Below are positions 10,684-63,121 of a stretch of DNA of 64,000 bases, in pieces. This stretch comes from Spirosoma rhododendri (lineage in GTDB: Bacteria > Bacteroidota > Bacteroidia > Cytophagales > Spirosomataceae), in the NCBI RefSeq assembly GCF_012849055.1, contig NZ_CP051677.1, positions 2,867,001 through 2,931,000 on the forward strand, read 5' to 3'. The first letter of the stretch is position 1. Every line of letters begins with the position of its first letter. Below the pieces are notes generated by a model. The model was not told where the DNA came from, made no database searches, and worked only from the letters and a program-made list of their open reading frames with translations. The position numbers and the translations under genes are program-made.

Positions 10684-10783
10684 GTTATAGAGTCATAAAG
10701 TTGTAGAGTTGTAAAGTTGACCAGCGCGTTAGCCCTTCCGGCGGCAGCAACTTTACAACTCTATAACGTTACGACTTTACAAC
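10684..10783. repeat. Intergenic hairpin with octamer-repeat arms
   Basis: The arms are 10684-10719 and 10748-10783 (36 bases, about 31 complementary) around a GC-rich loop. Each arm is a degenerate tandem of octamers such as TTATAGAG, TCATAAAG, TTGTAGAG, TTGTAAAG. It fills the gap between the NeuD-type gene and the GT4 gene. It shares its words with the hairpin at 61185-61325. Confidence 0.85.
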
Positions 10784-10795
10784 TATCAACGACGC

Positions 10796-11452
10796 TTAAT
10801 ACGCTTTATAACTCGGAATGGGCCGTTTCTCGGCGGGATTACCGACGTAAACACCCCAGGCATCGGTGTTTTTGGTGACCGACGCGGCCATACCGACCAG
10901 CGTACCTTCGCCGATGGTCAGGTAATCGCGGATGGTACTGTTGACCCCAAAAAACGAGTACGAACCGATGGTGCAGTGCCCCGACATAACCACGTGTGAG
11001 GTAAAGAATACGTGGTCATTGATGCGGCCGTGGTGCCCGATGTGATTACCACTCCACAACACGACGTTATTACCGATAGTGGTGAACGGCTGAATGGTAT
11101 TGTCTTCGAGAATAAAGCAGTTTTCGCCGATTTCGTTGCCGAAGGTGGTCGATTTCGAGCTGATGTATGAAATAAACTCATACCCTTTCGCTTTGGCTTC
11201 CAGATAGATACGCTCCCGGTTCTTGTTCATTCCCTTGCCTGTCATCGGCGCAAAGAACTTGTACTCCTGTGGGGGAAAAAGTTCTGCCACGTCTTCAAAC
11301 GGAACGAGAGGCAGCCCCCGAAATCCGGTTTTGTCGTGCAGGTACTCCTGATTTACCGTGAACGCAACGACTTCGTGTTCCGAATCATGCGTCAGGTAGA
11401 AGTGGGCCAGTTCGGCCGTATCCATAACCCCGAAAATAATAACCTTCGCCAT
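10796..11452 (-). CDS. NeuD-family sugar O-acetyltransferase (left-handed beta helix)
   Basis: The 218-residue protein has an N-terminal PglD/NeuD-like nucleotide-binding domain (KVIIFGVMDTAELAHFYL) and a C-terminal left-handed beta helix of hexapeptide repeats from about residue 105, including IGENCFILEDN, IGNNVVLWSG, IGSYSFFGVN and IGEGTLVGMAA. The GHHGRI segment near residue 139 holds the His that serves as general base in this family. Acetyl-CoA should donate an acetyl group to a sugar or nucleotide-sugar amine or hydroxyl. With the DegT aminotransferase in the same locus, an N- or O-acetylated aminosugar is a reasonable product. Confidence 0.8.
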   Translation of the reverse strand: MAKVIIFGVMDTAELAHFYLTHDSEHEVVAFTVNQEYLHDKTGFRGLPLVPFEDVAELFPPQEYKFFAPMTGKGMNKNRERIYLEAKAKGYEFISYISSKSTTFGNEIGENCFILEDNTIQPFTTIGNNVVLWSGNHIGHHGRINDHVFFTSHVVMSGHCTIGSYSFFGVNSTIRDYLTIGEGTLVGMAASVTKNTDAWGVYVGNPAEKRPIPSYKAY

Positions 11453-11460
11453 AGTGTAAA

Positions 11461-11537
11461 GAGCGAAAGAGCGAAAGAATCAAAGAGTGAAAATTGCTGA
11501 CGCGCATTATCGCTCTTTTGCTCTTTCACTCTTTCGC
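11461..11537. repeat. Intergenic hairpin with octamer-repeat arms
   Basis: The left arm is a tandem of octamers close to AGAGCGAA (with variants AGAATCAA and AGAGTGAA); the right arm from about 11510 is the degenerate reverse complement. It fills the space between the wbqC-like gene and the NeuD-type gene, beginning 8 bases before the latter's start codon. It uses the same word family as the hairpin in front of purL (32978-33062). Confidence 0.8.
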
Positions 11538-11544
11538 AATTAAA

Positions 11545-12255
11545 TTATACGAGTTCATACTGCGTTAGTAATTCCTTTGTTGCGGGTACGTCGTTGAACA
11601 TGAGGGCGTCGAGTATGGATAGCCAGGGGATGAATGTACTGCTATCGCCCCGGTTAAACTGTGCGTACTCGACCCGCTTCGACTGAATGAAGTTCAGGGT
11701 AATACCCGCTTCGGCAAAGCGCTCCCGATTATAAAGCTCCATACCACCGATTGGATTGATGTAGCGCGTAGCCCCTTCCTGCTTACAGATGTCCAGAATC
11801 CGTTCCTGTGCTTTCAGCTGCGTATTCTCGTAGACCGACGACGAGGCTACCAATGTCGGTGTCAGCCCCAGATAACCGTTCAGTTCAACCAGACTGTGGT
11901 AGATAAGCTCGGCGATGGAGCCGGTAGTAAAGTTGACGATTTTTTCGGTCAGCGGCATAACGGCCGCGTACTGTGGTGCCTTCCGATAGCCCTGCTCGAT
12001 GGTTTTCAGCAGCTTGCTCCGCCATTTCGGATCATCGGCCAGTTGAACTTCGTTGATTCGCTTATTCTGACTGGCATCTTTCAGCGGGATGGTGAACAGG
12101 TGCTCCTGCCCGTTGATTAACAGCTTGTTACGATTGATCCAGCCCCGATTTATGAACGAAACATCATCGTACAGCACAAACGTATCAACAGCCCCCATCA
12201 ACTGCATGTAGCCAATGTACGGCAAGAAATAAGGCTGCATGATGGCAAGGGTCAT
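11545..12255 (-). CDS. WbqC-like family protein
   Basis: The 236-residue protein is a textbook WbqC-like sequence: MTLAIMQPYFLPYIGYMQL at the start, FVLYDDVSFINRGWINRNK, and further on INPIGGMELY and FIPWLSILDAL near the end. Members of this family accompany O-antigen and sialic-acid-like sugar genes and are thought to be transferases working on aminosugar derivatives, but the exact reaction is not settled. It stands between the GT-C gene and the NeuD-type acetyltransferase, separated from both by heptamer or octamer hairpins, so expression may still be joint by read-through. Confidence 0.85.
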   Translation of the reverse strand: MTLAIMQPYFLPYIGYMQLMGAVDTFVLYDDVSFINRGWINRNKLLINGQEHLFTIPLKDASQNKRINEVQLADDPKWRSKLLKTIEQGYRKAPQYAAVMPLTEKIVNFTTGSIAELIYHSLVELNGYLGLTPTLVASSSVYENTQLKAQERILDICKQEGATRYINPIGGMELYNRERFAEAGITLNFIQSKRVEYAQFNRGDSSTFIPWLSILDALMFNDVPATKELLTQYELV

Positions 12256-12259
12256 GGAC

Positions 12260-12337
12260 GGGTTTGTAGTTTAATGGTCAATGTCTAAGGTTTTGTGGCA
12301 GCCAACGTTAACCATTGAACCATAAACCTTAAACTAT
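12260..12337. repeat. Intergenic hairpin with heptamer-repeat arms
   Basis: The left arm reads as heptamers GGGTTTG, TAGTTTA, ATGGTCA, ATGTCTA, AGGTTTT; the right arm (about 12307-12337) is an imperfect reverse complement. It occupies the whole gap between the wbqC-like gene and the GT-C-type gene, ending at the latter's stop codon. Confidence 0.75.
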
Positions 12338-14473
12338 CTATTTCAGCTTGCGTAAATAATAGTCTTCACCGGGCACGATAACGGCCTGACGCATGGTGGT
12401 GTCGGTACCAAGCCGCAGGTCGCCCGGTTGGGGGGTAATGACGCTTTTATCGAAAAACAGATAATCGGCGGCCTTGGGAATGGGTTGCACGCCCTGCTCA
12501 AACGGGTTGATAGTGATGAGTCGGCGCGACAGGTGAGGACCGTACAGCGGGTATTCGTAGTCGTCGTTGATCGTGCCGAGGGCCACCGTCGCTGTGTCGG
12601 GTACGAGTTGGTTAAAGCGCTCGTAAGGCGTGTAGATATCGGGTCGGCCGAGCGTCATCTGACGGATGCGATCCGAGGCAAAAGCCGATGGGTAAGCAAT
12701 GCCATCGGGTGCACGCCAGGGCAACGGCAGGGCACGGATGTTCAGAAACACGCATAGCACAGCCGATAGACAGCCAAGCCCCGTTACCATACCGACATAG
12801 ATTTTGCCCAGAAAATGGCCCGGGTTGGTAAATGTCAGTCTGGGGCTCAGTAAGAGTAAGCCCGCAAACGGCGCGCTCATCAGCCCGGTTTCGATAAAAT
12901 AACGCCCTTTAAATGGGTCGTACGGTGCAGAATAGGATAGGGTTACGAAGTGTAGAAGGACGGCTACCGCCAGAAAAATGTACGGATCATCGAGCAGTTT
13001 AGGCGTCAGTCTGAGCCAGCGAACCAGCGACAGAATAAGCAGGGGGAGCAGTAGCCCAAAACCAAAAATACCCCAGTACGGGTTGGCATTGAAAAACACA
13101 AACCGGCGATCGAAAGCGAAGGGCTGAATCGAGAAGTCGGTTTCCTCATCGAGCCGCATATGCAATTTAGCCTCCAGCCAAACCAGCGGCTCGCGCATCA
13201 GATGATTCAGTCGGTTACCCGTTGGCAGGTTACGCAGCCCGTCGAGGTTGATGTGGTCGAAACTGTAGCGTACCAGGTTTCGGCTGCCCTGCTCCAGCAA
13301 ATTCTTCAGCGATCCCGCCCGCTCAACCGACTGGTGTTTTAGGGCGGTTGGTGGGCCGATCGGGTGGCCGAAAACTTCAATGTTCTTCAGATAGCCCGTC
13401 GGCAGCGTCCACAGGCTGACACCGATAAGGATTGCACCCGCGAGTCGCAGCGTCCGACCGACTGTGGTGGCCAGCGAATCAGACAGAAAGACGGTGTAAA
13501 TCATGATGACAAACACCGATGGCAGCAGCAGCGCAAACGTGATCTTGTGCCCAAAGGCAATTCCGAAAGCCATACCCGCCATGTACAGATAGCGGTTGTC
13601 GCGGGTTTGCCGATACGTAAATAGCATGTACAGTACCACGCTCAGGTAGGCCGTCAGTACGATGTCGGTTTCGGTGGTGATGGCCTGCATCAGAAAATCG
13701 GGCACCAGTGCATAGATCAGGGCACATAAGAAACTGGCCGTCATGTTGGCCCGACCAGTGGTTAGCTGACCGATGCGCTGCACGATACCGAACACCGACA
13801 CAATAGCCGTCCAGTAGCTGAGGTGATGGATGAACTTGAACCCGTTTTCAAAATGGTTCGTCATCAGAAACCCGTAAATCTGGAGCGTGCAGACGCTTTT
13901 TGGGTAGGTATCGATGTTCCAGTTCGTACCACCAAAATGACGCATCGTACCGCGCTGCACGTACTGCATCACCCGATTCAGGTGGCCCGTCATGCTGTCC
14001 CACTCATTCGGCACAGTAAATAGAACCAGCAACAGATTCGTAACGGCAATCACGCTCAGCGTGAGCAGCAGCACCAGAAAAATAATGTTCAGATAAGGCG
14101 GCAACGATTCAAACCACTCCACACCAAGCTTACGTCGGTCGGCTACTAACGCCGGTATGGAAAAGGGGGTTGGCCGACCTGCCAGCCAACCCAGTACCCC
14201 GCCAACGACCGTTGCCGTGACGAAGACACCCAACCCCCAGGCCAGCGTGTTTGCTGTCAGATACAGGGCCGACAGCACAAAGCCCGTCAGGATGACGCTG
14301 CCCGCTCCCAGTAGAAAGGTTGTCAGCCACCAATCCGTCAAAGAAGGGCGGGCGATGCGACTCGCCAGATGACCCAGATAAATCAAAAACAAAACCAGCC
14401 CGGCCAGTTTAGGTAGCAGCAGGGCACTATCGGTCAGGCCGCTGAGCAGGATGCTGTTCAGAAGGCTAGACAT
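12338..14473 (-). CDS. Large multispanning membrane protein, putative GT-C glycosyltransferase
   Basis: The 711-residue protein has about twelve to thirteen hydrophobic helices spread over residues 15-600 and a soluble C-terminal tail. Between early helices there is a loop with WDSMTGHLNR, a candidate acidic catalytic motif for the GT-C fold (ArnT/PMT/GT39-like enzymes keep an Asp in the first periplasmic loop), and FGGTNWNIDTYPKSV follows. Such enzymes use polyprenyl-phosphate sugars on the periplasmic side. I do not recognise a precise family. The stop region overlaps the gap hairpin and the start overlaps the DegT gene's stop by 8 bases, indicating one operon. Confidence 0.65.
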   Translation of the reverse strand: MSSLLNSILLSGLTDSALLLPKLAGLVLFLIYLGHLASRIARPSLTDWWLTTFLLGAGSVILTGFVLSALYLTANTLAWGLGVFVTATVVGGVLGWLAGRPTPFSIPALVADRRKLGVEWFESLPPYLNIIFLVLLLTLSVIAVTNLLLVLFTVPNEWDSMTGHLNRVMQYVQRGTMRHFGGTNWNIDTYPKSVCTLQIYGFLMTNHFENGFKFIHHLSYWTAIVSVFGIVQRIGQLTTGRANMTASFLCALIYALVPDFLMQAITTETDIVLTAYLSVVLYMLFTYRQTRDNRYLYMAGMAFGIAFGHKITFALLLPSVFVIMIYTVFLSDSLATTVGRTLRLAGAILIGVSLWTLPTGYLKNIEVFGHPIGPPTALKHQSVERAGSLKNLLEQGSRNLVRYSFDHINLDGLRNLPTGNRLNHLMREPLVWLEAKLHMRLDEETDFSIQPFAFDRRFVFFNANPYWGIFGFGLLLPLLILSLVRWLRLTPKLLDDPYIFLAVAVLLHFVTLSYSAPYDPFKGRYFIETGLMSAPFAGLLLLSPRLTFTNPGHFLGKIYVGMVTGLGCLSAVLCVFLNIRALPLPWRAPDGIAYPSAFASDRIRQMTLGRPDIYTPYERFNQLVPDTATVALGTINDDYEYPLYGPHLSRRLITINPFEQGVQPIPKAADYLFFDKSVITPQPGDLRLGTDTTMRQAVIVPGEDYYLRKLK

Positions 14474-15554: not shown

Positions 15555-15637
15555 AGAGAGAGGCCGGTGCTGGCACTCGTTTACACGGCAGGCGGTAAAG
15601 TGCTGCGAACCGGATGCGGAGATCTAAACCCCAGAAC

Positions 15638-16901: not shown

Positions 16902-17759
16902 TTAAATATCGTCTACAAACGAGTTCTCGCGCTTGCGGAAGAAGTAAACCGACAGAATCAGACAAATACCCGTCAATACAACGGATGCCAGCAGGCTCTG
17001 CGGATTGAAATAAGTTTTACCCCCCAGCAAAGCCCACCGAAAGCCATCGATGATACCCACCATTGGGTTGAGAATATAGATCGGGTACCAACGTTCGTCG
17101 GCTACCAACTGACTCGTGTAAGCGATTGGGCACGCGTAGAAACCGACCTGTACGATAAAGGGAATCAGCTGCCCGATGTCACGAAATTTCACGTTAATGA
17201 CTGCAAAAAACAGACCGAACGCAAACGCAGCCAGTACTGCCAGCACCACAAATACCGGGACCAGCAGCAAATGCCAGTCGGGTATGAACTGATACCAGAT
17301 CGCCAGCAGGATAAACAAGCCCAGCGACACCAGAAAATCAAGGAAGCTGACGGCAATTGAGCTGAGCGGCATCAGCAACCGGGGAAAGTATACTTTCGTG
17401 ACCAGATTGGAGTTGAGCGTTACGCTGTTGCTGATCTGCGTAAAGGCCGTCGAAAAAAACGTCCAGATCGTGATGCCGGCCAGCACCATGAGTGGATAGG
17501 GAATACCCGGATCACCTTTCAACTTGGCAACCTTGCTGAATACGAAGACCATGATGAGCATGGTTGTCAGCGGGCGAATGAGGCCCCAGGCCATGCCCAG
17601 AGCCGTCTGCTTGTACCGAACCGATACGTCGCGCATCGACAGAATCAGCAGCAATTCACGGTTGCGCCACAGGTCTCGCCAGTAATGTTTCTCCGAGCGG
17701 CCGGGCTGTATAACTACCTCTTGTGTTTTCAATGATTTATGGTTTTCGGTTTTCAGCAT
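16902..17759 (-). CDS. wzm: Polysaccharide ABC exporter permease (Wzm-like)
   Basis: The 285-residue protein has the ABC-2 polysaccharide-export layout: a cytoplasmic N-terminus with HYWRDLWRNRELLLILSMRD followed directly by VRYKQTALGMAWGLIRP and six hydrophobic helices. It forms the channel for the Wzt-like ATPase downstream. The first residues (MLKTENHKSLKT) are encoded by the left arm of the heptamer hairpin at 17735-17819; a TTG at codon 10 (17730-17732) would be an alternative start that avoids most of the repeat. The conserved part begins near residue 20, so either start gives a working protein. Confidence 0.9.
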   Translation of the reverse strand: MLKTENHKSLKTQEVVIQPGRSEKHYWRDLWRNRELLLILSMRDVSVRYKQTALGMAWGLIRPLTTMLIMVFVFSKVAKLKGDPGIPYPLMVLAGITIWTFFSTAFTQISNSVTLNSNLVTKVYFPRLLMPLSSIAVSFLDFLVSLGLFILLAIWYQFIPDWHLLLVPVFVVLAVLAAFAFGLFFAVINVKFRDIGQLIPFIVQVGFYACPIAYTSQLVADERWYPIYILNPMVGIIDGFRWALLGGKTYFNPQSLLASVVLTGICLILSVYFFRKRENSFVDDI

Positions 17760-17819
17760 TCAGTTTTCAGTGGATGCGCAGGGATGAGACCGTCAACTGA
17801 AAACTGAATACCGTAAACC
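17735..17819. repeat. Heptamer-repeat hairpin reaching into the wzm 5' coding end
   Basis: The left arm is made of heptamers TTTATGG, TTTTCGG, TTTTCAG, CATTCAG, TTTTCAG and the right arm (about 17796-17819) is their imperfect reverse complement. Part of the left arm lies inside the predicted wzm coding sequence and contains its ATG, so the repeat also supplies codons. Confidence 0.75.
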
Positions 17820-17823
17820 TCCT

Positions 17824-18942
17824 CTATTGCCCCTGCATGATGGAGCGATAGGTTTCCCGCAAAAATATGACAATAAGCGCCAGTATCAATCCCAGTGCAA
17901 TACCGATTTGCATGCCGACGGGCGTGATAACCTCCCGGTAAAGAGGCAGCGTAACCGGTTCGATGATCGTAAACAGGGGGGCTTCCCGGATCAGCGACAG
18001 ACGCATGTTCTCGGCGTTTTGCAGCGCCTGGTAATAAATCGTTGTCAGGAAGGTCGAGTTTCGGGTCAGCTTGTTTTGCATCATCTGCCCCTGCGCCACC
18101 ACCATCTGCTGGTTCTGATCCATGTACTGGGCCAGCCGCCGTTCGGTACCGCTCATCAGCCCGGCAATCGAGTCGGCACGGGCGGTCAGCAGGTCGTACA
18201 TTTCACGTGTCTTCTTCGTCTGCTTGCTCCGGTAATCTTCCTCGATGGTTTCGAGGTGATGCTCGATAAAACTGGCCGCCAGCATTTCGTCTTCCATGCC
18301 GCAGCGTAGTTCCATGAACGACGATTTCCGCTCGGGCTGCACCACGCCAATTTCCGCTTTCATGCGGCCATAAATCTGCGACATCGCGATCCGCTCCAGC
18401 TTCGTGTATTCGCTGGGCTTTTTAGCGCGGGGAAACGAGAAGGCGCGCAGGGTGTCGCTCTTTTCCCACTCCTTGTCGCGAATGCCGCTGTGCCGGATGT
18501 AATAGTTGACAAGCAGGGTGTCGACACCGTTGATTTTAACGGTCTTCATTAACGTCTTCTCGACAACCGGGCGCGATTTAGCGTAGACCAGGAAGTTTTC
18601 GCCGACGAAAATATTAGCGTCGGGGGCTCCCTGACCAATACCAAAGGCACCTGCCAGCGCGCCCAGCTCACCACCGAACGAACTGGAACTACCACCACCG
18701 CCGAGGTTGAAGGTCATCGTGGCGGTGTAGACGGGAGCTTTCTGGTTGAACTGATCGTAGATAAACCCGATAGTGGCACCAATACCGATCAACGCGACCA
18801 GCAGCAGCCAGTTTCGGCGGACGACATCCTTGAGCCGGAACAGGCGGAGAACGACCGATTTGGGCGAAATCTGATCCGGGGGCAGCGGGCGGGTAACCAT
18901 GCCGTTTGGATCGTTGGCCGGGGTTAAATTAGTTGGTATCAT
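17824..18942 (-). CDS. Wzz-like chain-length determinant / polysaccharide co-polymerase
   Basis: The 372-residue protein has the Wzz topology: a membrane helix near residues 44-62 (WLLLVALIGIGATIGFIYD), a long periplasmic part with predicted helices, and a second membrane helix near 338-362 (GIALGLILALIVIFL) with a short cytoplasmic tail and no tyrosine kinase domain. A Gly/Ser-rich loop with GGGGSSSSFGG follows the first helix. It stands 13 bases after the export-protein gene. In this context it probably sets chain length or bridges the inner-membrane exporter to the outer-membrane channel. Coexistence with an ABC exporter is unusual for classical Wzz, so the bridging role may be more likely. 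Confidence 0.82.
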   Translation of the reverse strand: MIPTNLTPANDPNGMVTRPLPPDQISPKSVVLRLFRLKDVVRRNWLLLVALIGIGATIGFIYDQFNQKAPVYTATMTFNLGGGGSSSSFGGELGALAGAFGIGQGAPDANIFVGENFLVYAKSRPVVEKTLMKTVKINGVDTLLVNYYIRHSGIRDKEWEKSDTLRAFSFPRAKKPSEYTKLERIAMSQIYGRMKAEIGVVQPERKSSFMELRCGMEDEMLAASFIEHHLETIEEDYRSKQTKKTREMYDLLTARADSIAGLMSGTERRLAQYMDQNQQMVVAQGQMMQNKLTRNSTFLTTIYYQALQNAENMRLSLIREAPLFTIIEPVTLPLYREVITPVGMQIGIALGLILALIVIFLRETYRSIMQGQ

Positions 18943-27211: not shown

Positions 27212-28690
27212 ATGAAAAAAATACACCTGACACTGGCATTAGCAGCGGGGCTGCTGGCCGGTGCCTGCAAGCAGGATTACCTGGATACCGCCCCCACGGG
27301 CAGCGTCGACGCGGCTGCGGCCTACGCGACGACCAAAAATGCGACGGCGGCTATCAACGGTATTTACCGGGCGATGGTTGTACGTTACCTCGACTCGCAG
27401 GGGCACTTCGGCCACCCGGCGATGATGATTATCAACGACGTGCTGGGCGAGGACGTCATCATCAGCAATACGTCGAACAACTGGCATCTGGCCGAAACGC
27501 GCTGGCAGGCCCACCGTTCGGAAACGTCGGCGGGCGATCAGCTGGGGTACCAGTTGTATTACCGCCTGATCGGTAACGCCAACGTTGCCATCGCCAACAT
27601 CGACAACGCAACGGGCACACCCGCCGAGCGCAATCAGGTCAAAGGTGAAGCACTGGGCCTGCGGGCGTTTTCGTACTTCAACCTGGTGCAGCTATACGGT
27701 AAGCGGTACAACGCGGCTACGATCCCCAACAGTCAGCTGGGTGTTCCGCTGATTCTGGTGCCGACAACGACCGGGCAGGCCCGCGCAACGGTTGAAGAGG
27801 TGTACACGCAGATCAACAAAGACCTGGCCGACGCGGCTACGCTCCTGACGTCGACTCGTCCGTACAAGTCGCACATCAATCTGGAGGTGATTCGTGGGTT
27901 TCAGGCCCGCGTCGCGCTGACGCAGCAAAACTGGGCCGATGCGGCAAAATTCGCGGCACAGGCTCGTACCGGCTACTCGCTCATGACGACGGCGCAGTAC
28001 CAGGAGGGCTTCGCCGACATCGCTAACCCGGAGTGGATGTGGGGTTTTGATCATATCGAAGATCAGACAGAGTACTTCGGGGCGTTTCACTCGTATATGT
28101 CGGCCAACTTCAACTCGACCAACATCCGCGTAACGCCGAAGCTTATCAACAGCAAGCTCTACGATCAGATTCCGACGACGGACGTACGCTCGAAGATGTG
28201 GGTGAAGTCGCCAAACACAACGAACTCAGTCGTGCCGACGGGCGGGATACGCGTAGCTTACCTGAACCAGAAATTCCGCCTGCCCGGCACGCCCTCGACC
28301 AGTACGATGGGCGACGTACCGTACATGCGGGTGGCGGAAATGTACCTGATCGAAGCTGAAGCACAGGCCCGGCTGGGTAACTCGGCGGCATCGGCAACGG
28401 CGCTGTACGACCTGATCAGTAAGCGCGATGCTGCCTACACCAAATCGACAAAAACCGGAACGGCGCTGGTCGATGAGATTCTGTTCCACCGGCGTGTCGA
28501 GTTGTGGGGCGAAGGCTTCCGCTTTACCGACCTGAAACGGACAAACCAGCCACTCAACCGCAACGGGGCCAACGTCAACACGGCGGTAGCGGTACTCTTT
28601 GACGTAGCCGCCGGTGACAATCAGTGGGAGTTTCTAATTCCGCGCCGGGAAATCAACGCCAACGCAGCCATCGTGCAGAATCCGTTGTAA
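27212..28690 (+). CDS. susD: SusD/RagB family nutrient-binding lipoprotein
   Basis: The 492-residue protein has a lipoprotein signal peptide with lipobox LAGAC (Cys at residue 19), followed by the SusD-like N-terminal TPR helices (TKNATAAINGIYRAM; NANVAIANIDN; VKGEALGLRAFSYFNLVQLYG, the diagnostic SusD region near residue 145) and the RagB/SusD C-terminal domain with VPYMRVAEMYLIEAEAQAR and DEILFHRRVELWGEGFRFTD. It covers the extracellular mouth of the SusC barrel. The 14-base gap to susC marks a two-gene operon. No terminator is obvious; a heptamer hairpin follows. Confidence 0.95.
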   Translation: MKKIHLTLALAAGLLAGACKQDYLDTAPTGSVDAAAAYATTKNATAAINGIYRAMVVRYLDSQGHFGHPAMMIINDVLGEDVIISNTSNNWHLAETRWQAHRSETSAGDQLGYQLYYRLIGNANVAIANIDNATGTPAERNQVKGEALGLRAFSYFNLVQLYGKRYNAATIPNSQLGVPLILVPTTTGQARATVEEVYTQINKDLADAATLLTSTRPYKSHINLEVIRGFQARVALTQQNWADAAKFAAQARTGYSLMTTAQYQEGFADIANPEWMWGFDHIEDQTEYFGAFHSYMSANFNSTNIRVTPKLINSKLYDQIPTTDVRSKMWVKSPNTTNSVVPTGGIRVAYLNQKFRLPGTPSTSTMGDVPYMRVAEMYLIEAEAQARLGNSAASATALYDLISKRDAAYTKSTKTGTALVDEILFHRRVELWGEGFRFTDLKRTNQPLNRNGANVNTAVAVLFDVAAGDNQWEFLIPRREINANAAIVQNPL

Positions 28691-28693: not shown

Positions 28694-28772
28694 AGTTCAA
28701 CGTTTGTAGTTCAAGGTTTAAGGTTATTGACCAAATTCGCAACGTTAAACTTTGAACTATAAACGTTGAACC
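28694..28772. repeat. Intergenic hairpin with heptamer-repeat arms
   Basis: The left arm (28694-28729) reads as heptamers GTTCAAC, GTTTGTA, GTTCAAG, GTTTAAG; the right arm (about 28739-28772) is a close reverse complement. It fills the susD-pheA gap and ends 7 bases before the pheA start codon. Confidence 0.85.
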
Positions 28773-28779: not shown

Positions 28780-29853
28780 ATGACCCTCGAATCGCTCCGT
28801 AACAATATCGATGCACTGGACGATCAGTTACTGACGCTGCTGAATCAGCGGATGGAACTGGTGCGGAAAGTGGGTGAACTCAAACGCTCGGCCAACACGG
28901 TGATTTACCGGCCCGAGCGCGAAAAACAAATCCTCGACCGGCTCCACAGTCAGAATACGGGCCTGCTCAATCAGGCGGCTATCGAGGCTATTTTTCTGGA
29001 AATCTTTGCCGTTTCGCGCAATCTCGAACTGCCCGAACGGGTATCGTATCTGGGGCCGGAGGGGAGCTTTACCCATCAGGCCGCCGAGAGTCGGTTTGGG
29101 GCGATGAGTGCATATATGGCCCTGCCGACCATTCGGTCGGTGTTCGAGAGTGTCGAGACGGGGCGGGTGCGGTTTGGCGTCGTGCCGATTGAAAACAACC
29201 AGGAAGGTGTCGTCAACGAGACGATTGACCTGCTGCTGGAGAAAGACCTGCGCATTGCCGCCGAAGCGCAGATTCCGGTGCATTTTACGTTTGCCACGCA
29301 GACGGAGAACCTCGCCGAAATCACGCACATTTATTCAAAAGACATCGCTTTTCGGCAGTGCAGTCGTTTCCTTAACGACTCGTTCGACGGCCTGAACGCT
29401 GAATTTGTCCCGGTTGAATCGACGTCGAAAGCGGCTAAACTGGCGGCTCAACAGCCGAAAACAGCCGCGATCTGCTCGCAAATCGCGGCCAAGCTATTCG
29501 ACGTGCCGGTGTTGTTCGACAACATCGAAAACTCCGATCTGAACCGTACCCGCTTCCTGATTCTGGCCAAAGAGTTCGTCAATCAACCAAGTGGTAACGA
29601 CAAAACGACGCTGATCGCCCGGCTGGCCAACACGCAGTCGCCGGGGGTACTGGCCGAGTTTCTGCAATCGTTCAACGCACGGGGCATTAACCTGACCAAG
29701 ATCGAAAGCCGCCCGCTACGCGACGGGGCTACGTTCCGCTACTGGTTTCTACTCGAATGCGAAGGCCACGCCGACGACCCGGCTCTGCGCGACGTGATGG
29801 CGCAGTACGCCAACGAAGTGAAGCTGCTGGGTAGCTACGTGCGGGGGGCTTAG
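28780..29853 (+). CDS. pheA: Bifunctional chorismate mutase / prephenate dehydratase
   Basis: The 357-residue protein has three parts. Residues 1-85 are an AroQ-type chorismate mutase (LRNNIDALDDQLLTLLNQRM, KVGELK, YRPEREKQIL). Residues about 90-270 are prephenate dehydratase, beginning VSYLGPEGSFTHQAA and ending with the NRTRFLIL segment whose Thr-Arg-Phe is catalytic. The last 85 residues are an ACT domain with LTKIESRP, the phenylalanine-binding loop. It converts chorismate to phenylpyruvate for phenylalanine synthesis and should be feedback-inhibited by Phe. It is unrelated in function to the susCD pair upstream. Confidence 0.94.
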   Translation: MTLESLRNNIDALDDQLLTLLNQRMELVRKVGELKRSANTVIYRPEREKQILDRLHSQNTGLLNQAAIEAIFLEIFAVSRNLELPERVSYLGPEGSFTHQAAESRFGAMSAYMALPTIRSVFESVETGRVRFGVVPIENNQEGVVNETIDLLLEKDLRIAAEAQIPVHFTFATQTENLAEITHIYSKDIAFRQCSRFLNDSFDGLNAEFVPVESTSKAAKLAAQQPKTAAICSQIAAKLFDVPVLFDNIENSDLNRTRFLILAKEFVNQPSGNDKTTLIARLANTQSPGVLAEFLQSFNARGINLTKIESRPLRDGATFRYWFLLECEGHADDPALRDVMAQYANEVKLLGSYVRGA

Positions 29854-30628: not shown

Positions 30629-30668
30629 AACGCAAAGGGGTCGGCATCACTGCCGACCCCTTTGCGTT
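30629..30668. terminator. Hairpin terminator between the molybdoenzyme and purL
   Basis: Perfect 18-base arms (30629-30646 and 30651-30668) enclose the loop TCAC. The arm ends with CAAAGGGG and CCCCTTTG. With no long T run on either side it could stop transcription from both directions. Confidence 0.8.
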
Positions 30669-30714: not shown

Positions 30715-32973
30715 CTAGCTCATAATCGCTTCCAGCGAGTAGTTGTACAGGGCCTTCGCTTCGTGCGAGGTGAGCACCTGCTTGTCTTCAATCGAGAAGC
30801 CCTGCCCGGTGACTTTACCCAGATACTGGAATGGCAGGATGCTGTCGTTGAGGTAGCCTTCCAGATGCTCAACCTGATCGGGCGAGATCGTTATGACAAC
30901 GCGGCTCTGTCCTTCGCCGAACAGGAAGGCGTCGGTACGGTGCCGCTCGTCGGTGCCGATAGCAAAGCCTTTGTCGCCCGTCATGGCCGATTCCGCCAGG
31001 GCAACGAACAAGCCACCATCCGATACGTCGTGCGCCGACTGAAGCCAGCCGTTACGAATCATCGTTTTGATACCTTCCTGCACGCGCCACTCGTCTTCAA
31101 ACAGGAAATATGGCGCGGGCGACGCTTTGATGCCCCGGTACGAGTACAAATACTCCGACGAAGCAATATCGTTTGACGATGCGCCGATGAGGTAAATCAG
31201 GTCGCCTTCGTTCTTGAAGTTCATCGTCATGCGATGGGTCGGATCTTCCATCAAGCCCAGCATACCGATGGTCGGCGTGGGGAACACCGGACCGTCGTCG
31301 GACGATTGGTTGTAGAAACTAACGTTACCGCCTGTAACGGGGGTGCTGAACCGGCGGCAGGCTTCGCCCATACCCTGAACAGCCTCGACAAACTGCCAGT
31401 ACACTTCCGGTACGTAGGGGTTGCCGAAGTTCAGGTTATTGGTAACGGCCAGCGGTTCGCCACCCGTACAAACAATGTTGCGGCAGGCTTCCGCTACGGC
31501 GATCATCGCGCCCTTGCGGGGTTCGGCGTTTACGTAGCGGCTGTTGCAATCGACCGTGATGACAATTGACTTGTCAGTGGCGGGCAGGCCGGGGCCTTTC
31601 ACGCTGACAACAGCGGCATCCGACGGGGCGTTGGTGCTCCGGTTCGCCGTACCAACCATCGAATCGTATTGCTCATACACCCACCGGCGCGAGCAGATGT
31701 TCGGGTGCGACAGCAGGTGTTTGGCAACTGCCGTCAGTTCATCCGCCGTAACGTCATCGACATCGTCGGGGTTGAACTTGGCGTATTCCTTAATGTACGC
31801 CGGTTCTTTGTATTCGCGCTGATACTGTGGCGCCCCACCACCGAGCACCAGATCATAGGCCGGTACGTCGGCGACGAGTTCGCCGTATCGGTAGAAATGC
31901 AGACGACCCAGGTCGTTTTCGCCTTTGGCCACTACTTCGCCAATCTGCGCGCAGTTGAGGTCCCACTTGTCGAAAATGCCCTGGATAACGTCTTCCTTGC
32001 CTTTCTCGATGACGACCAGCATCCGCTCCTGCGATTCTGACAGCAGAATCTCGAACGGAGCCATATTGGGCTGACGGGTCGGGACTTTGTCGAGGTCGAT
32101 AATCATGCCGTGCTCACCTTTCGCGCTCATTTCTGAGGTCGAGCAGATGATCCCGGCGGCACCCATATCCTGAATACCGATGACGTGACCCGTGGCGATG
32201 ATTTCGAGTGTTGCTTCGAGCAGCAGCTTCTCCATGAACGGGTCACCGACCTGCACAGCGGGCAACTTATCGGTCGAGGCTGCGGTAATGTCTTCCGACG
32301 CAAAGGTGGCTCCGTGAATACCGTCTTTACCCGTCGCCGAGCCAACGATAAACACCGGGTTGCCCACGCCGTACGACGTTGCTTTGGCTACTTTACCCGT
32401 TTCAACGATACCCGCCGAGAACGCGTTGACGAGCGGATTGGTGTTGTAGCATTCGTCGAAATACAGCTCCCCGCCAACGGTTGGAATACCGAACGCGTTG
32501 CCGTAATCGCCGATGCCTTTCACCACACCGCGTAGCAGGCGCTTGGTTTTAGCCAGGCTCAGATCGCCGAAACGCAGCGAATTGAGCTGGGCGATGGGCC
32601 GGGCACCCATCGTAAAAATGTCGCGGTTGATCCCGCCCACGCCCGTTGCGGCACCCTGATAGGGTTCCAGCGCCGAAGGGTGGTTGTGCGATTCGATTTT
32701 GAACGAACAGGCCAGCCCGTCGCCGATGTCGACCAGTCCGGCGTTTTCTTCACCTGCCTTGGCGAGCATCCGATCGGAGTCGCGGGGGAGGGTTTTCAGC
32801 CAGACAATCGAGTTTTTGTAGGAGCAGTGCTCCGACCACATCACCGAGAAGATACTGAGTTCGGTAAAGTTGGGCTGACGGCCCAGAATGTCGACGATTT
32901 TGTCGAATTCGTCGGGGAGCAGGCCCAGCTTGCGGGCGGTTTCGAGCGTTGGCAGTGATTCGGTTGCGTCCAT
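30715..32973 (-). CDS. purL: Phosphoribosylformylglycinamidine synthase, small-type subunit PurL
   Basis: I use the ATG at 32971-32973 ([18 protein letters not shown]), because the longer frame to 33012 is only the translated repeat arm. The 752-residue protein is a small PurL: it carries [21 protein letters not shown] with the catalytic His, [18 protein letters not shown] (ATP/Mg), [22 protein letters not shown] and a second AIRS-like half with GNVSFYN. It uses glutamine-derived ammonia, ATP and FGAR to make FGAM in purine synthesis and needs separate PurQ and PurS, which are not in the window. The promoter box TACTTTTG lies at 33073-33080, and a hairpin fills its 5' leader. Confidence 0.95.
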
Positions 32974-50796: not shown

Positions 50797-50838
50797 CACC
50801 ACGGCGGACCTCGGATTTATCCGGGGTCCGCCGTGGTG
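50797..50838. terminator. GC-rich hairpin after the serine hydrolase gene
   Basis: Perfect 14-base arms CACCACGGCGGACC (50797-50810) and GGTCCGCCGTGGTG (50825-50838) lie 12 bases after the stop of the minus-strand gene. Confidence 0.8.
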
Positions 50839-53731: not shown

Positions 53732-54253
53732 GTGGAACGGAGAAATGCATTGAAAACACTGGCCGGTGCTGTGGGTGGCCTGATTGCCCTGCCCGGCTGG
53801 GCGTCCGGCTGGACAGCGGAGTCGGTTCGGCTGGCGACACCGTTGCTGCCTGCTGATCAGGTCGAGACGTTAGCGGCCGTTGTCGACACCATTATCCCGG
53901 CAACCGATACGCCCGGTGCCAAAGACCTCAACGTGCAGCAGTTCATCCAGAAAGTGGTGGCCGACTGCTACGATAAGCCCACGCAGGATATGCTGTCGAA
54001 CGGCCTGGTTCTGACGAACGATCTGGCGCAAAAGACCTTTGGCAAGCCGTTTAACGCAGGCGACGCAACCCAGCGCGTGACTCTGCTCAAGCAGCTGGAA
54101 CAGTCGACGGACCCGGCGCAGGCTGCATTTATCAAACTGGTCAAGCCGCTCACGATCCGGGGCTATCTCAACTCCGAGTACGTCATGACCAACCTGACGC
54201 ATTACGAGTTCATCCCCGGCCATTACAACGGCTGCGTACCAGTGAAAAAATAG
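53732..54253 (+). CDS. Gluconate 2-dehydrogenase subunit 3-like Tat protein
   Basis: The start is GTG at 53732, giving MERRNALKTLAGAVGGLIAL, a Tat signal with the RR pair at residues 3-4 and a hydrophobic core. The remaining 140 residues fit the gluconate-2-dehydrogenase subunit-3 family: LAAVVDTIIPATDTPGA at the start of the domain and TNLTHYEFIPGHYNGCVPV at the end. In the three-subunit FAD dehydrogenases this small subunit escorts the folded flavin subunit to the periplasm. The GMC gene downstream is its expected partner; a cytochrome subunit is not seen. Confidence 0.85.
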   Translation: MERRNALKTLAGAVGGLIALPGWASGWTAESVRLATPLLPADQVETLAAVVDTIIPATDTPGAKDLNVQQFIQKVVADCYDKPTQDMLSNGLVLTNDLAQKTFGKPFNAGDATQRVTLLKQLEQSTDPAQAAFIKLVKPLTIRGYLNSEYVMTNLTHYEFIPGHYNGCVPVKK

Positions 54254-54328
54254 GTTTAAGGTTTATGGTTCAACGTTTAACGTTGGCCTAATCGACAAAC
54301 CTTAAACGTCAAACTACAAACCTTGAAC
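54252..54328. repeat. Intergenic hairpin with heptamer-repeat arms
   Basis: The left arm (54252-54286) reads GGTTTAA, GGTTTAT, GGTTCAA, CGTTTAA, CGTTGGC; the right arm (54296-54328) is the degenerate reverse complement. It lies between the subunit-3 and GMC genes, only 10 bases before the GMC start codon. Confidence 0.8.
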
Positions 54329-54338: not shown

Positions 54339-56051
54339 ATGGCTAATTTCAATATTGATGCGCAGGCGCTGAATACCTACGATGCCATTGTGGTGGGGTC
54401 GGGGATCAGCGGGGGCTGGTCGGCGAAAGAGCTGACGGCGAAGGGCCTGCGAACGCTGGTGCTGGAGCGTGGTCGCGATGTACGGCACATTACCGACTAC
54501 CCCACGACCAACATGCAACCCTGGGAGTTTGAACACCGGGGCCAGCTGACCAAAGACGTCAAAGACGCCAACCCGATTATCAGCAAGTGCTACGCATTTT
54601 ACGAAGGCACCGAGCAGTTTTTCGTGAAAGACGCTGAGCACCCCTACGTGCAGGAAAAACCCTTCGACTGGATTCGTGGCTATCAGGTTGGTGGTAAATC
54701 GCTGATGTGGGCGCGGCAAACCCAGCGCTGGAGCGACTTCGACTTTACCGGTCCCGCCCGCGATGGGTTCGCCGTCGACTGGCCAATTCGCTACGCCGAT
54801 CTGGCTCCGTGGTACAGCTACGTCGAGAAATTTGCGGGGATCACCGGCAACAAAGACGGCCTCGATACTCTGCCCGATGGTGAGTTTCTGACGCCCCACG
54901 AGTGGAACTGCGTCGAAACGCATTTTCAGAAGCAGATCGCCAGCAAATACAAAGACCGGCACGTGATTATGGGCCGGGCGGCTCACCTGACAAGCCCAAA
55001 GCAGATTCACTACGATCAGGGCCGGGCACAGTGTCAGCACCGGACGATCTGCGAGCGCGGCTGTCCGTTCGGCGGCTACTTCAGCAGCAACTCAAGCACA
55101 ATTCCGTGGGCGGCCAAGACGGGTAAGATGACCCTGCGGCCCAACTCGGTGGTTCACTCGATCATCTACGACGAGAAAAAAGGCCGGGCAACGGGCGTGC
55201 GCGTGATCGACGCTAATACAAAGCAGATGACGGAGTACTACGCCCGGCTGATCTTCGTCAACGCGGCTGCCCTCAATACCAACCTGATTCTGCTCAACTC
55301 GATTTCGACGCGCTTCCCCAACGGGCTGGGTAACGACAGCGGTACGCTGGGCAAATACGTGGCGTTCCACAACTACCGGGCGGGTATTTCGGGCGAATAC
55401 GACGGTAATCTCGACATGACCACCGACGGACGCCGACCCAACAGCCCGTATATCCCCCGCTTCCGCAACGTTTATAAGCAGGAAACTAACTTTCTGCGCG
55501 GCTACGCGGCTGGTTTTCAGGCGGGTCGTTCCTCGGATACCGATCAAAGCGGGATGGGGGCCGACCTGAAGCAAAGTTTGCTAAACCCGAAGCTGGGTGG
55601 CTGGCACGTCGGATCGCACATGATGGGCGAAACCATTCCGAAAGAAAGCAACTACGTCGCGCTCGATTCGTCGCTGAAAGACCCGTACGGCATCCCGCAG
55701 CTCAAAATTGCGATTGCCTACGACGATAACGACGAGAAGATGATCAAGGATTATCAGGAGCAGATGACCGAGATGTTTCAGGCGGCTGGCTTCACCAATA
55801 TCCGCCTGCGCGACGACAAACGCAACCCCGGCCTCGATATTCACGAGATGGGCGGTGTCCGGATGGGTAAAGACCCCAAAACGTCGATGCTAAACAAGTG
55901 GAATCAGCTGCACGCGGTGAAAAACGTGTTCGTCACCGACGGAGCAAGCATGACGTCGACCTCCACGCAAAACCCCTCACTTACCTACATGGCCTTCTCC
56001 GCCCGCTCGGTTGATTACGCCGTCAAGGCAATGAAAAAAGGTCTGGTTTAA
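54339..56051 (+). CDS. GMC-family FAD oxidoreductase (sugar/gluconate dehydrogenase type)
   Basis: The 570-residue protein has the FAD-binding YDAIVVGSGISGGWSAKEL (14-32) with GxGxxG, the adenine-side VLERG, a second FAD motif QVGGKSLMWARQ, and the C-terminal GMC part MGGVRMGKDPKTS and NVFVTDGASMTSTSTQNPS with the active-site Asn. Cys residues near HRTICERGCPFGG could take part in electron transfer but are unproven. With the Tat-exported small subunit upstream, it would oxidise a sugar or sugar acid in the periplasm after folding in the cytoplasm; it has no own signal peptide. The acceptor is unknown. Confidence 0.88.
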   Translation: MANFNIDAQALNTYDAIVVGSGISGGWSAKELTAKGLRTLVLERGRDVRHITDYPTTNMQPWEFEHRGQLTKDVKDANPIISKCYAFYEGTEQFFVKDAEHPYVQEKPFDWIRGYQVGGKSLMWARQTQRWSDFDFTGPARDGFAVDWPIRYADLAPWYSYVEKFAGITGNKDGLDTLPDGEFLTPHEWNCVETHFQKQIASKYKDRHVIMGRAAHLTSPKQIHYDQGRAQCQHRTICERGCPFGGYFSSNSSTIPWAAKTGKMTLRPNSVVHSIIYDEKKGRATGVRVIDANTKQMTEYYARLIFVNAAALNTNLILLNSISTRFPNGLGNDSGTLGKYVAFHNYRAGISGEYDGNLDMTTDGRRPNSPYIPRFRNVYKQETNFLRGYAAGFQAGRSSDTDQSGMGADLKQSLLNPKLGGWHVGSHMMGETIPKESNYVALDSSLKDPYGIPQLKIAIAYDDNDEKMIKDYQEQMTEMFQAAGFTNIRLRDDKRNPGLDIHEMGGVRMGKDPKTSMLNKWNQLHAVKNVFVTDGASMTSTSTQNPSLTYMAFSARSVDYAVKAMKKGLV

Positions 56052-56141
56052 GGTTCAGAGTTTAACGTTCAAGGTTTAAAGTCTACTGTTTGAGGTTGCT
56101 GCCCGTGTCAACCTTAAACAGTAGACTTTAAACATTAAACC
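56052..56141. repeat. Intergenic hairpin with heptamer-repeat arms
   Basis: The left arm (56052-56098) reads GGTTCAG, AGTTTAA, CGTTCAA, GGTTTAA, AGTCTAC, TGTTTGA; the right arm (56109-56141) is a close reverse complement including AAAGTCTACTGTTT. It lies directly after the GMC stop. Confidence 0.85.
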
Positions 56142-58679: not shown

Positions 58680-58723
58680 AAGCAGAACGCCCGCTGATCG
58701 TATGATCAGCGGGCGTTCTGCTT
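58680..58723. terminator. Perfect hairpin terminator between feoB and 58742 gene
   Basis: Perfect 20-base arms (58680-58699 and 58704-58723) enclose GTAT. It ends feoB and the convergent small gene. Confidence 0.9.
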
Positions 58724-60746: not shown

Positions 60747-61121
60747 ATGAGCGAGTTAATCAAATTAGTGGAGGCAGACAATGCGCAGCGTCGCACCGAG
60801 TTGCCTACGTTCCGGGCGGGAGACACGGTGAATGTGCACGTCAAAATCCGCGAAGGAAATAAAGAACGGATCCAGGTATTCACCGGCACAGTTATTCAGC
60901 GCCGGAACCCAAGCAGCGGTGGCGAAACGTTCACCGTGCGTAAGGTATCGAACGGTGTAGGTGTCGAGCGGATTTTCCCGACCCTGTCGCCTAACATTGA
61001 CAAAATCGAGGTAGTACGTATGGGTAAAGTACGTCGTGCCCGTCTGTTCTTCCTGCGCGGTCGTCAGGGCAAGGCAGCACGTCTGAAAGAGCGCAAGCCG
61101 AAACCAGCAGTCGTGGCTTAA
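60747..61121 (+). CDS. rplS: 50S ribosomal protein L19
   Basis: The 124-residue protein is a clear L19: [55 protein letters not shown] and [22 protein letters not shown]19 contacts the 30S subunit at the interface. The C-terminal [13 protein letters not shown] tail is slightly longer than in E. coli. It stands alone with its own promoter and a rho-independent terminator, so its usual partners (trmD, rimM) are elsewhere. Confidence 0.98.
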
Positions 61122-61177: not shown

Positions 61178-61184
61178 GTTGCAA

Positions 61185-61325
61185 AGTTGTAGAGTTTGAT
61201 AGTTGTAGAGTCGTAAAGTTGCTACCGCCGGATGGCCCGACGCGCCAGTCCCGGCACCGTACGCGGCTGCGGGGGAACCGCAACTTTATAACTTTACGAC
61301 TCTACAACTATCAAACTCTACAACT
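61185..61325. repeat. 36-base perfect octamer-repeat hairpin before dapF
   Basis: Arms 61185-61220 and 61290-61325 are perfectly complementary over 36 bases. Each is a tandem of octamers (TTGTAGAG, TTTGATAG, TTGTAGAG, TCGTAAAG). The loop is long and GC-rich. It begins after the rplS terminator and ends 6 bases before the dapF GTG start, so it belongs to the dapF leader. Confidence 0.92.
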
Positions 61326-61331
61326 ACCCCC

Positions 61332-62111
61332 GTGAACATTCCATTTTTTAAATACCAGGGTACCGGTAACGATTTTGTGATGATCGACGACCGGAGTGAA
61401 ACCTTCCCCGCCAGCGATCAGGCCCTGATTGAGCGACTGTGCCATCGGCGATTTGGTATTGGTGCCGATGGGCTGATTCTGCTGCGCAACGACCCCGACT
61501 ACGATTTTCGGATGATTTATTTCAATGCTGATGGAGCCGAAGGCAGCATGTGCGGCAATGGGGGCCGGTGTATCGTTCGCTTTGCCCACGACCTGAATCT
61601 GTTTGAGGGGCAAACGCGCTTTATTGCTGTGGATGGTGAGCACACTGCTACTGTAACGGACAACGATGTGTCGCTGAAGATGAGCGATGTAGCTGCTATT
61701 GGCGAGCAGGGGAACCATGTGTTTCTCAACACAGGCTCTCCGCACGCCGTGTTGTTTACGGATGATCTGGAATCGACGGATGTAGTGGCTGAGGGGCGTG
61801 CTATCCGGTACAGCGAGCCATTCAGCCCGGGTGGTACAAACGTAAATTTTGTACAGCAGACAGACCAATCGTCGTTGTATGTGCGTACATACGAACGGGG
61901 CGTTGAAGACGAAACCTACTCCTGTGGTACCGGTGTGACGGCGGCAGCGCTGGCGGCTCACAGTCAATTGGGTGTCGCGGAGCCGGTTGCCATACGCACG
62001 CTGGGTGGTAACCTGCGCGTATCGTTCAACCAGAAGCCCGATGGTACCTTTACCGACGTGTACCTGATTGGCCCGGCCCGGCGGGTGTTCACCGGAAGCT
62101 GTACAATCTGA
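61332..62111 (+). CDS. dapF: Diaminopimelate epimerase
   Basis: The 259-residue enzyme starts at GTG 61332 (MNIPFFKYQGTGNDFVMID, a classic N-terminus) and has both catalytic cysteines: C74 in GSMCGNGGRC and C197 in ETYSCGTGV. It is the cofactor-independent racemisation of LL- to meso-diaminopimelate for lysine and peptidoglycan. The 61185-61325 hairpin lies directly upstream. No other dap gene is adjacent. Confidence 0.97.
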   Translation: MNIPFFKYQGTGNDFVMIDDRSETFPASDQALIERLCHRRFGIGADGLILLRNDPDYDFRMIYFNADGAEGSMCGNGGRCIVRFAHDLNLFEGQTRFIAVDGEHTATVTDNDVSLKMSDVAAIGEQGNHVFLNTGSPHAVLFTDDLESTDVVAEGRAIRYSEPFSPGGTNVNFVQQTDQSSLYVRTYERGVEDETYSCGTGVTAAALAAHSQLGVAEPVAIRTLGGNLRVSFNQKPDGTFTDVYLIGPARRVFTGSCTI

Positions 62112-62126
62112 TTTTTATCCGTTGTT

Positions 62127-63056
62127 ATGATCCTTTACAAAGCAAAGAGCTGGCTACCCGCTGTTTGGCATTTCCACACTGGTCCAACTGCATTTGCACT
62201 GTTCCGGCGGCTGGGTGTCGTACTGATTTACGTTGCGATCGTAACGACCGTTGAAATACACTACTTCGACACTCGCCTGAAAGACACGCCCAGTTCGTTT
62301 CTGTCGGCAATGGGCATTCTGCTTAGCCTGCTGCTGATCTATCGGACGAATACGGCTTATGACCGGTTCTATGAGGGTCGGACTGCCTGGGGGGCTCTGG
62401 TGAATAACAGCCGGAACCTGGCGCTTTACTTTAACGCCGTACTACCGCTCGATCGACACGAAGACCGATTGTTCTTCGCAAAGATGATTTCCAACTTTCC
62501 GTTCGCGCTCAAAAACCACTTGCGGGGAAGTACAAACACAGATGAACTGGAACTGCTGGACGACGAAGACAAACAAACACTGAATCGGTTCGATTACAAA
62601 CCCGGTGGCGTGTCGAGCCTGCTATGGAACCGGTCAGAATCGCTGTACCGGGAGGGTATGCTGTCGACGTCGCAACATATCAACCTGAATCAGCGGCTCA
62701 CAGCCATGATGGACGTGGCCGGTATCTGCGACCGGATCAAGAGTACGCCGATTCCGTTTTCGTACAACCTGTTTATCAAGCTGTTTATTACGATTTACGT
62801 GGGGGTATTGCCATTTACCATCGTTCAGGCGTTTGGGTACATGACCATTCCTGCCGTGGTGCTTACTTCCTATATTCTGATTGGGCTGGAACTGATCGGG
62901 GAGGAGATCGAAGACCCGTTTGGTGTCGACCGTAACGATTTGCCGCTGAATCAGATCAGCCAGTTGATTCGGGTCAACGTACACGATATCCTGAATTACG
63001 AACTGCCGCAGGCCGAGAAACAGGCCGCAAAACCCGGCTTCGTTATCGTCACGTAG
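62127..63056 (+). CDS. Bestrophin-family (UPF0187) membrane channel
   Basis: The 309-residue protein has the bacterial bestrophin pattern: YRTNTAYDRFYEGRTAWGAL near residue 72-91, followed by NNSRNLAL, four membrane helices, and the C-terminal IGEEIEDPFGVDRNDLPL, which is the family's acid-rich hinge. Bestrophins form pentameric anion or cation channels; bacterial ones conduct Na+ or K+. It starts 15 bases after dapF, in the same direction. Confidence 0.92.
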   Translation: MILYKAKSWLPAVWHFHTGPTAFALFRRLGVVLIYVAIVTTVEIHYFDTRLKDTPSSFLSAMGILLSLLLIYRTNTAYDRFYEGRTAWGALVNNSRNLALYFNAVLPLDRHEDRLFFAKMISNFPFALKNHLRGSTNTDELELLDDEDKQTLNRFDYKPGGVSSLLWNRSESLYREGMLSTSQHINLNQRLTAMMDVAGICDRIKSTPIPFSYNLFIKLFITIYVGVLPFTIVQAFGYMTIPAVVLTSYILIGLELIGEEIEDPFGVDRNDLPLNQISQLIRVNVHDILNYELPQAEKQAAKPGFVIVT

Positions 63057-63065
63057 GTTTTCTTT

Positions 63066-63121
63066 CGACAGGATTACAGGATTTACTTTCTTTTTCAACA
63101 GTAAATCCTGTAATCCTGTCG
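63066..63121. repeat. Octamer-type hairpin between convergent genes
   Basis: Perfect 20-base arms (63066-63085 and 63102-63121) contain the tandem octamer ACAGGATT twice. The loop is T-rich. It separates the bestrophin gene from the rhodanese and could act as a terminator. Confidence 0.85.

Follow-up and report, generated by a model that had tools for sequence, protein, structure and literature searches.

Hairpins with arms of tandem 7- or 8-nt words at gene 3′ ends in Spirosoma rhododendri and the joint change of their arms between species

The window analyzed here, a whole stretch of 64,000 nt of the Spirosoma rhododendri genome (contig NZ_CP051677.1, positions 2,867,001–2,931,000), carries eleven hairpins between genes whose arms are degenerate tandems of words of 7 or 8 nt. 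Comparison with the nearest relative (genome G055; 89% identity at gene 54339–56051) revealed that the position and the period of such hairpins are inherited between species, but their words are not: both arms of a site change together. We lean, with slightly more confidence than doubt, toward reading them as dispersed inverted-repeat elements of gene 3′ ends, in which template switching at the DNA level would homogenize the arms and expanding word families would take over existing sites.

The hairpin census covered 1.264 Mb of the 6.05-Mb S. rhododendri genome (three contigs) and 0.9 Mb of long contigs of G055, of which another 0.3 Mb served for mapping only. Inverted repeats were collected with an ungapped finder (minimum arm length 18 nt) and counted as hairpins at a score of at least 14. 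Gene boundaries and strands came from a simple in-house caller, and the word families are patterns defined post hoc, after inspection of the data.

Excess, periodicity and placement of the hairpins

An earlier note on this DNA, made from its letters alone, had listed long inverted repeats at the eleven sites. Such a repeat is present at all of them, and each site folds better than all 200 of its dinucleotide shuffles (z between −3.3 and −12.7). The folds at 12260 and 34343 are the weakest. The ungapped finder recovered 8 of the 11 sites; at the remaining three (12260, 34343 and 54252) the arms are imperfect and offset, and the predicted fold at 12260 pairs the arms only partly and in a different register. 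Tandem Repeats Finder (TRF) arrays of period 7/14 or 8/16 were detected at 10 of the sites, with none at 12260 and just two ACAGGATT copies per arm at 63066. The sole Rfam match at gathering score in the whole window was one tRNA.

The 1.2 Mb of the same chromosome contained 264 inverted repeats, compared with 3 in first-order random sequence. When the best arm lag was taken over lags 3–12 (autocorrelation of at least 0.6), 36 of these repeats were assigned to lag 7, 33 to lag 8, 9 to all other lags and 186 to none; strong autocorrelation is thus nearly confined to lags 7 and 8. The comparison with shuffled intergenic sequence that the earlier note had proposed (cut-off 0.55 at lag 7 or 8) revealed 16 inverted repeats in the 35 window gaps, 8 of them with lag-7/8 arms, versus 0 and 0 in 50 dinucleotide shuffles, and 256 inverted repeats in 705 gaps of the 1.2 Mb, 72 of them with lag-7/8 arms, versus a mean of 0.2 (maximum 1) and 0 in five shuffles. 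The shared architecture with variable words is therefore real and far above chance. Genome-wide, the pattern (GTTNNNN)x4+GTT had 250 matches and its reversed control 0. The 7/8 rule is weaker beyond this genome: in loci of 20 kb from other genera, 27 hairpins had tandem arms, 18 of them at lag 7 or 8. A five-word pattern matched 116 of 150 genomes from the family's other genera, but its reversed control also matched often, and it was discarded as a measure there.

Hairpins were counted per gap over the 1.2 Mb, in convergent (n = 112), co-directional (n = 426) and divergent (n = 135) gaps. Those of period 7 occupied 14, 26 and 1 of these gaps, respectively, a preference of about 2:1:0 that is proportional to the number of gene 3′ ends, and those of period 8 occupied 10, 22 and 4. 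Divergent gaps were avoided (Fisher p 0.0008). The idea that the hairpins sit in co-directional gaps as often as in convergent ones did not survive this count, nor does it describe the window, in which 10 of the 11 gaps are co-directional. Among co-directional tandem hairpins, 42 of 48 start at most 15 nt from the upstream stop codon, compared with 17 of 55 hairpins of non-tandem families and 14 of 43 unclassified ones. Nine of the 11 window sites start within this distance; the exceptions are 61185 and 32978 (32978–33062), the latter nearly unchanged in G055 and adjoining a start codon, not a stop.

Hairpins at gene 3′ ends could be ordinary intrinsic terminators. However, a T-rich stretch (at least 6 of the first 10 nt) lies 3′ of only 2 of 57 period-7 and 1 of 47 period-8 hairpins, compared with 12 of 92 unclassified hairpins, and many of the tandem hairpins are found within operon-like gaps, at a median of 16–24 nt ahead of the next start. 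Terminators were rejected as an explanation for want of a U-tract, and we regard them as very improbable.

The arms measure about 31 nt irrespective of period (median 31 for GTTYAAN, 30 for AAAGAGCG and 31 for TGAATGAT words), with median loops of 16–27 nt and total hairpin lengths of about 77–86 bp. Word polarity, read from the outside inwards, is nearly always fixed (in S. rhododendri, GTTYAA 40 versus 4 and GARTGAT 21 versus 0; GTWTWC 38 versus 1 in G055 and 16 versus 0 in Larkinella), the exception being GTTYAA in G055 (0 versus 3). GTTYAAN arms also share a four-word order, in which GTTTGT-like words form the third unit from the loop in 20 of 52 arms and are seldom the first (2 of 52) or the fourth (3 of 38). 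Shared word order and polarity suggest that the sites of a family derive, with degeneration, from copies of a single arm and did not arise separately. The GTTYAAN sites look like dispersed copies of one degenerate element, contrary to the earlier statement that the sites are not copies of one mobile sequence.

The loop core GGCTGRCGC (at most 1 mismatch) was present in 22 of 40 period-8 loops of S. rhododendri and 17 of 32 of G055; its rarity in period-7 loops (4 of 43 and 5 of 31, respectively) led us to dismiss it as a universal part of the hairpins. Exact GGCTGACGC occurs within genes as well, 31 of its 48 copies in the 1.2 Mb being non-intergenic. Positions 1–1200000 of contig C1 of the S. 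rhododendri genome also contain numerous hairpin families whose arms are long and often perfect but not tandem, for example GTCCCCGACAGCTTCCAGCTGTCGGAGCCG, TTTGTCATYCCGACGACAGGAGG, CCTCACCCCCGGCCCCTCTCC and TGTAGCCTGGACGTCCACGTCCGGGTGG, and at 351401, 695831 and 782055 of contig C1 TGTAGCCTGGACC hairpins are nested within period-7 hairpins.

Joint change of the arms between species

Hairpins were found in the G055 gaps orthologous to all 11 window sites, nine by the finder and two (12260 and 54252) by eye. At five sites (11461, 12260, 28694, 34343 and 56052) both G055 arms carry another word family, and at five they carry the same family with changes (Table 1). The gap orthologous to 54252 in Spirosoma validum (L001) is short and has no hairpin. 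Between S. rhododendri and G055, mapping succeeded for 104 of the 280 hairpins; the orthologous G055 gap held a hairpin in 80 cases and none in 24. Period 7 was matched by period 7 at 16 sites and by no hairpin at 2, and period 8 by period 8 at 19 sites, by another hairpin type at 3 and by none at 1; exchange between periods 7 and 8 occurred in 0 of 35 pairs (Fisher p 2e-10). For the 35 sites of non-tandem families, the G055 counterpart was a period-7 hairpin in 6 cases, an empty gap in 13, and often another family. As for the words, GTTYAAN sites had GTWTWCR in G055 in 8 of 16 cases and AAAGAGCG sites had TGAATGAT in 7 of 10, with the reverse change in 2 of 8.

The two arms of one site matched each other at an identity of 0.89–0.93 (period 7: 0.89 in S. 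rhododendri and 0.91 in G055), whereas identity of arms across the two species was 0.66 for period 7 and 0.68 for period 8, compared with 0.61 and 0.64 for random pairing within each class; the flanks of period-7 sites were at 0.84. In three Larkinella genomes at 92.6–93.6% identity, period-7 arms had identities of 0.94–0.95 within a site and 0.76 across species, with flanks at 0.94. These identities show that the arms diverge faster than their flanks yet remain matched, and the covariation of arms that the earlier note had suggested checking is borne out. The Larkinella cross-species arm identities were bimodal (n = 25; 10 at 0.71 or below and 15 at 0.82 or above), indicating that arms change by jumps, some sites being nearly unchanged and others fully rewritten. 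Near alignment column 11870 of L013–L015, a Larkinella hairpin of CGGAGTTGAG type exhibits concerted arm changes among three species in the same gap.

Two further features point to copying between arms. Loops (8–60 nt) were inverted in 7 of 40 Larkinella pairs, compared with a mean of 0.78 and a maximum of 3 in 200 permutations, with clear cases in A168 at 15592 and 34109 and, within period-7 hairpins, at 78557 and 96542. Six S. rhododendri sites have arms interrupted by a GC block (CCGGGCCGCCGGGCG or a variant of it). Four of them show the block as a mirror image in the two arms, each site with its own variant, which the arms share; the other two carry it in a single arm. That the block was inserted twice, independently, at mirrored places is unlikely, so that one arm was probably copied from the other. 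Two more copies of the block lie within S. rhododendri genes, and at two Larkinella sites it is confined to one arm.

Joint arm change might instead reflect selection at the RNA level, with a stem needed in the mRNA and maintained by ordinary compensatory mutation, perhaps with a word-reading protein. Placement at gene 3′ ends, stable folds and the strong avoidance of divergent gaps would fit this explanation. The faster divergence of arms than of flanks does not, and loop flips and mirrored blocks would be unexpected. Among arm mismatches of co-directional period-7 and period-8 hairpins, 97 were G.U and 79 A.C on the transcribed strand, an excess that is not significant, and 102 were transversions; the corresponding numbers for unclassified hairpins, real terminators among them, were 43, 22 and 12. 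This control is weak and the test of limited weight, since convergent gaps should show no strand bias, yet the unclassified hairpins in them had 8 G.U and 20 A.C mismatches (p 0.036). The result lowers the likelihood of RNA-level selection on the tandem hairpins, which we consider improbable.

Table 1 Tandem-word hairpins of the window, with gene strands in brackets, fold z scores and the state of the orthologous G055 gap
Position	Period and words	Gene context	Fold z	G055
10684–10783	8; GTTGTAAA	stop of gene 10796–11452 (−) 12 nt away		same word family, altered
11461–11537	8; AAAGAGCG, with GCTGACGCGC in loop	7 nt from stop of gene 11545–12255 (−)		GAATGATT words in both arms
12260–12337	7; GTTTAA	fills gap up to stop of gene 12338–14473 (−)	−3.3 (weakest)	GTTTACG/TTTTCAG words
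17735–17819	7; TTTTCAG	4 nt from stop of gene 17824–18942 (−)		same word family, altered
28694–28772	7; GTTCAAC	3 nt past stop of 27212–28690 (+), 7 nt ahead of ATG of 28780–29853 (+)	−9.7	GTTTACG words
32978–33062	8; AAAGAGCG	upstream stop 133 nt off; start of 30715–32973 (−) 4 nt off; exception to stop-codon rule		nearly identical
34343–34440	7; GTTTAAT	fills gap 34338/34440	−3.9	GTTTTCGG/GTTTACAG words
54252–54328	7; GTTTAAG	overlaps stop of 53750–54253 (+); start of 54339–56051 (+) 10 nt on		same words, altered
56052–56141	7; GTTTAAG/GTTCAAG	immediately 3′ of stop of 54339–56051 (+)		GTTTTCGG/GTATTCAG words
61185–61325	8; AGTTGTAG, perfect 36-nt arms	63 nt past stop of 60747–61121 (+); second exception to stop-codon rule	−12.7	same family, different arrangement
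63066–63121	two ACAGGATT words per arm	convergent genes, stops 9 and 1 nt off	−12.1	same words and a third

The window also contains short-loop, perfect or near-perfect hairpins resembling ordinary terminators at 58680–58723, 50797–50838 and 30629–30668.

Word families and the origin of the shared words

When 36 genomes of the genus were compared, three consecutive GTTYAAN words were found 58 times in S. rhododendri, 4 times in G162, once each in G150, G154 and G055, and in none of the other 31. Since these words are nearly private to S. rhododendri, they were most likely derived in its own lineage. GTWTWCR was present in 25 of the 36 genomes, with peaks in G055 (328), G162 (102) and S. rhododendri (85); AAAGARYG was present in 32 and GARTGATN in 21. 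A tentative reading of this distribution is a genome-wide change of dialect, in which dozens of orthologous 3′-end hairpins would have passed from GTWTWCR to GTTYAAN in both arms with place and period kept. If true, it would call for a trans-acting writer, which copies in 7- or 8-nt steps or switches templates ectopically between sites, or for a co-evolving reader of the words; such a writer, if real, would be a new kind of system.

Replacement turnover is the main rival of arm copying: a new hairpin element would integrate into, or recombine with, the one already occupying a site, and the match of the arms would be inherited from the newcomer. At many sites arms and loops do change together and completely, and the bimodal identities in Larkinella and the contrast between the nearly private GTTYAAN and the GTWTWCR common to G055, G162 and S. 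rhododendri fit such turnover. So does nesting, as 6 of 91 non-tandem hairpins of S. rhododendri are flanked by period-7 words in hairpin polarity, compared with 10 of 2000 random intergenic stretches; in G055 the count was 0 of 31. Random exchange, however, should mix periods 7 and 8, which none of the 35 pairs did; mirrored GC blocks and inverted loops require copying from arm to arm, and clean target duplication was not seen at the few sites where the hairpin is absent. We hold turnover as a whole to be possible though doubtful, and it may act alongside arm copying.

Candidate movers were sought among RAYT/IS200-type transposases. The S. rhododendri genome has one weak match to Y1_Tnp (E 4e-8), and the hairpins beside this gene are of the GTCTCAAACAGC and TGTCATTCCGA types, not tandem. 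Y1_Tnp copy number did not correlate with word counts over the 36 genomes, 7 of which had no Y1_Tnp match, including G162 with 132 word matches and G106 with 64. A mover of this type was rejected on the single weak gene and the missing correlation. The Y1_Tnp-like gene itself, the only one in the genome, lies at 971494–972126 (−) of contig C1 and adjoins a GTCTCAAACAGC hairpin at 972143, possibly the element that it moves. When donor copies were sought through the similarity of their loops, shared modules came up but no exact donors.

The favored reading, arm copying by template switching, can be put as follows. Elements of about 70–90 bp would settle at gene 3′ ends, mostly directly 3′ of the stop codon, each word family having a pair of arms, each about 31 nt long and composed of some four 7-mers or 8-mers. 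The folded hairpin strand, or a nascent copy, would serve as template for the other arm, and the same template switching would flip loops. Slippage by whole words would spread changes within a site, so that words change while place and period stay, and lineage-specific word families would expand and take over existing sites. Of the candidates that the earlier note had offered for this architecture, the unknown generating mechanism may take the form of arm copying in DNA; RNA pairing and a repeat-reading protein fit less well with the inverted loops, mirrored blocks, many transversions and the lack of a significant G.U excess. REP (repetitive extragenic palindrome) hairpins are thought to protect 3′ ends or to separate the translation of neighboring genes, and by analogy an RNA hairpin behind the stop codon may act in the same way here.

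Several observations weigh against this reading. The main point that slippage and arm copying leave unexplained is the sharing of one new word by many sites, because local processes alone would let sites drift separately and a shared word needs more. No enzyme moving the elements was found by the searches described above. Between S. rhododendri and G055, loop inversion was not in excess (1 of 41 pairs; permutation mean 0.40), and 37 of the 41 loops are unrelated, an outcome compatible with wholesale replacement no less than with copying. Several of the seven Larkinella inversions are one event repeated across pairs, or of low complexity. In the AAAGAGCG family, arms match at 0.945 within a site versus 0.923 between sites, and the window site at 32978 has come through without a change of words. 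Period-7 mismatches alone (59 G.U versus 43 A.C, p 0.14) leave room for some RNA selection.

If the reading is right, these hairpins would be a natural record of arm-to-arm copying in bacterial genomes, each genome supplying hundreds of independent replicates. The frequency of palindrome rewriting by template switching could then be measured and the reason for a word length of 7 or 8 tested. Joint arm changes are easily mistaken for RNA covariation, which advises caution in deducing RNA function from compensatory changes alone.

Comparison with known systems

In open-licence literature we found no report of such hairpins. The kind is known, namely repetitive extragenic palindromes, but the defining features of REP and of heptamer direct repeats are not matched. 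REP and REPIN sequences, in the parts of PMC3116915 and PMC3733652 that describe them, are dispersed extragenic inverted pairs that form hairpins, with stems of 5–13 bp, a GTAG or CGTC tag and RAYT transposases, in families that peak in single strains. The tandem hairpins resemble them as dispersed inverted pairs mainly in co-directional and convergent gaps, near gene ends, and in their strain-peaked families. They differ in having arms that are about 31 nt long and built from words of 7 or 8 nt, and the one Y1_Tnp-like gene of S. rhododendri is not flanked by the tandem type. REP tags within 10 nt outside either arm were few (raw counts, n = 88: GTAG 13, GGAG 4, CGTC 2), and do not mark the class. 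The hairpins are thus best read as REPIN-like in habit, probably without a REP tag or a matching RAYT.

Among heptamer repeats, the cyanobacterial STRR sequences are short tandemly repeated heptanucleotides, that is, intergenic direct repeats of period 7. The TAACTGA direct repeats of Beggiatoaceae, cyanobacteria and five Bacteroidetes, accompanied by other heptamers in strain-specific sets, are, in the sections of PMC4679880 that deal with them, mostly located immediately ahead of start codons; the main genome has a single inverted case, and no RNA structure is predicted. They share with the present hairpins intergenic tandem heptamers and a patchy distribution over species, but the latter have mirrored arms (11 of 11 window sites), lie behind stop codons and have periods of both 7 and 8.

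Template-switch mutations create and maintain hairpins and, in the portion of PMC8794818 that presents them, are described for rRNA genes and microRNAs. Loop inversion together with joint multi-base arm change, the combination by which we judged this likeness, was found in Larkinella; between S. rhododendri and G055 it lacked an excess of inversions. The hairpins resemble those cases in joint multi-base arm changes, stem insertions and loop inversions, and differ in that the process would act here on hundreds of dispersed bacterial hairpins built of tandem words.

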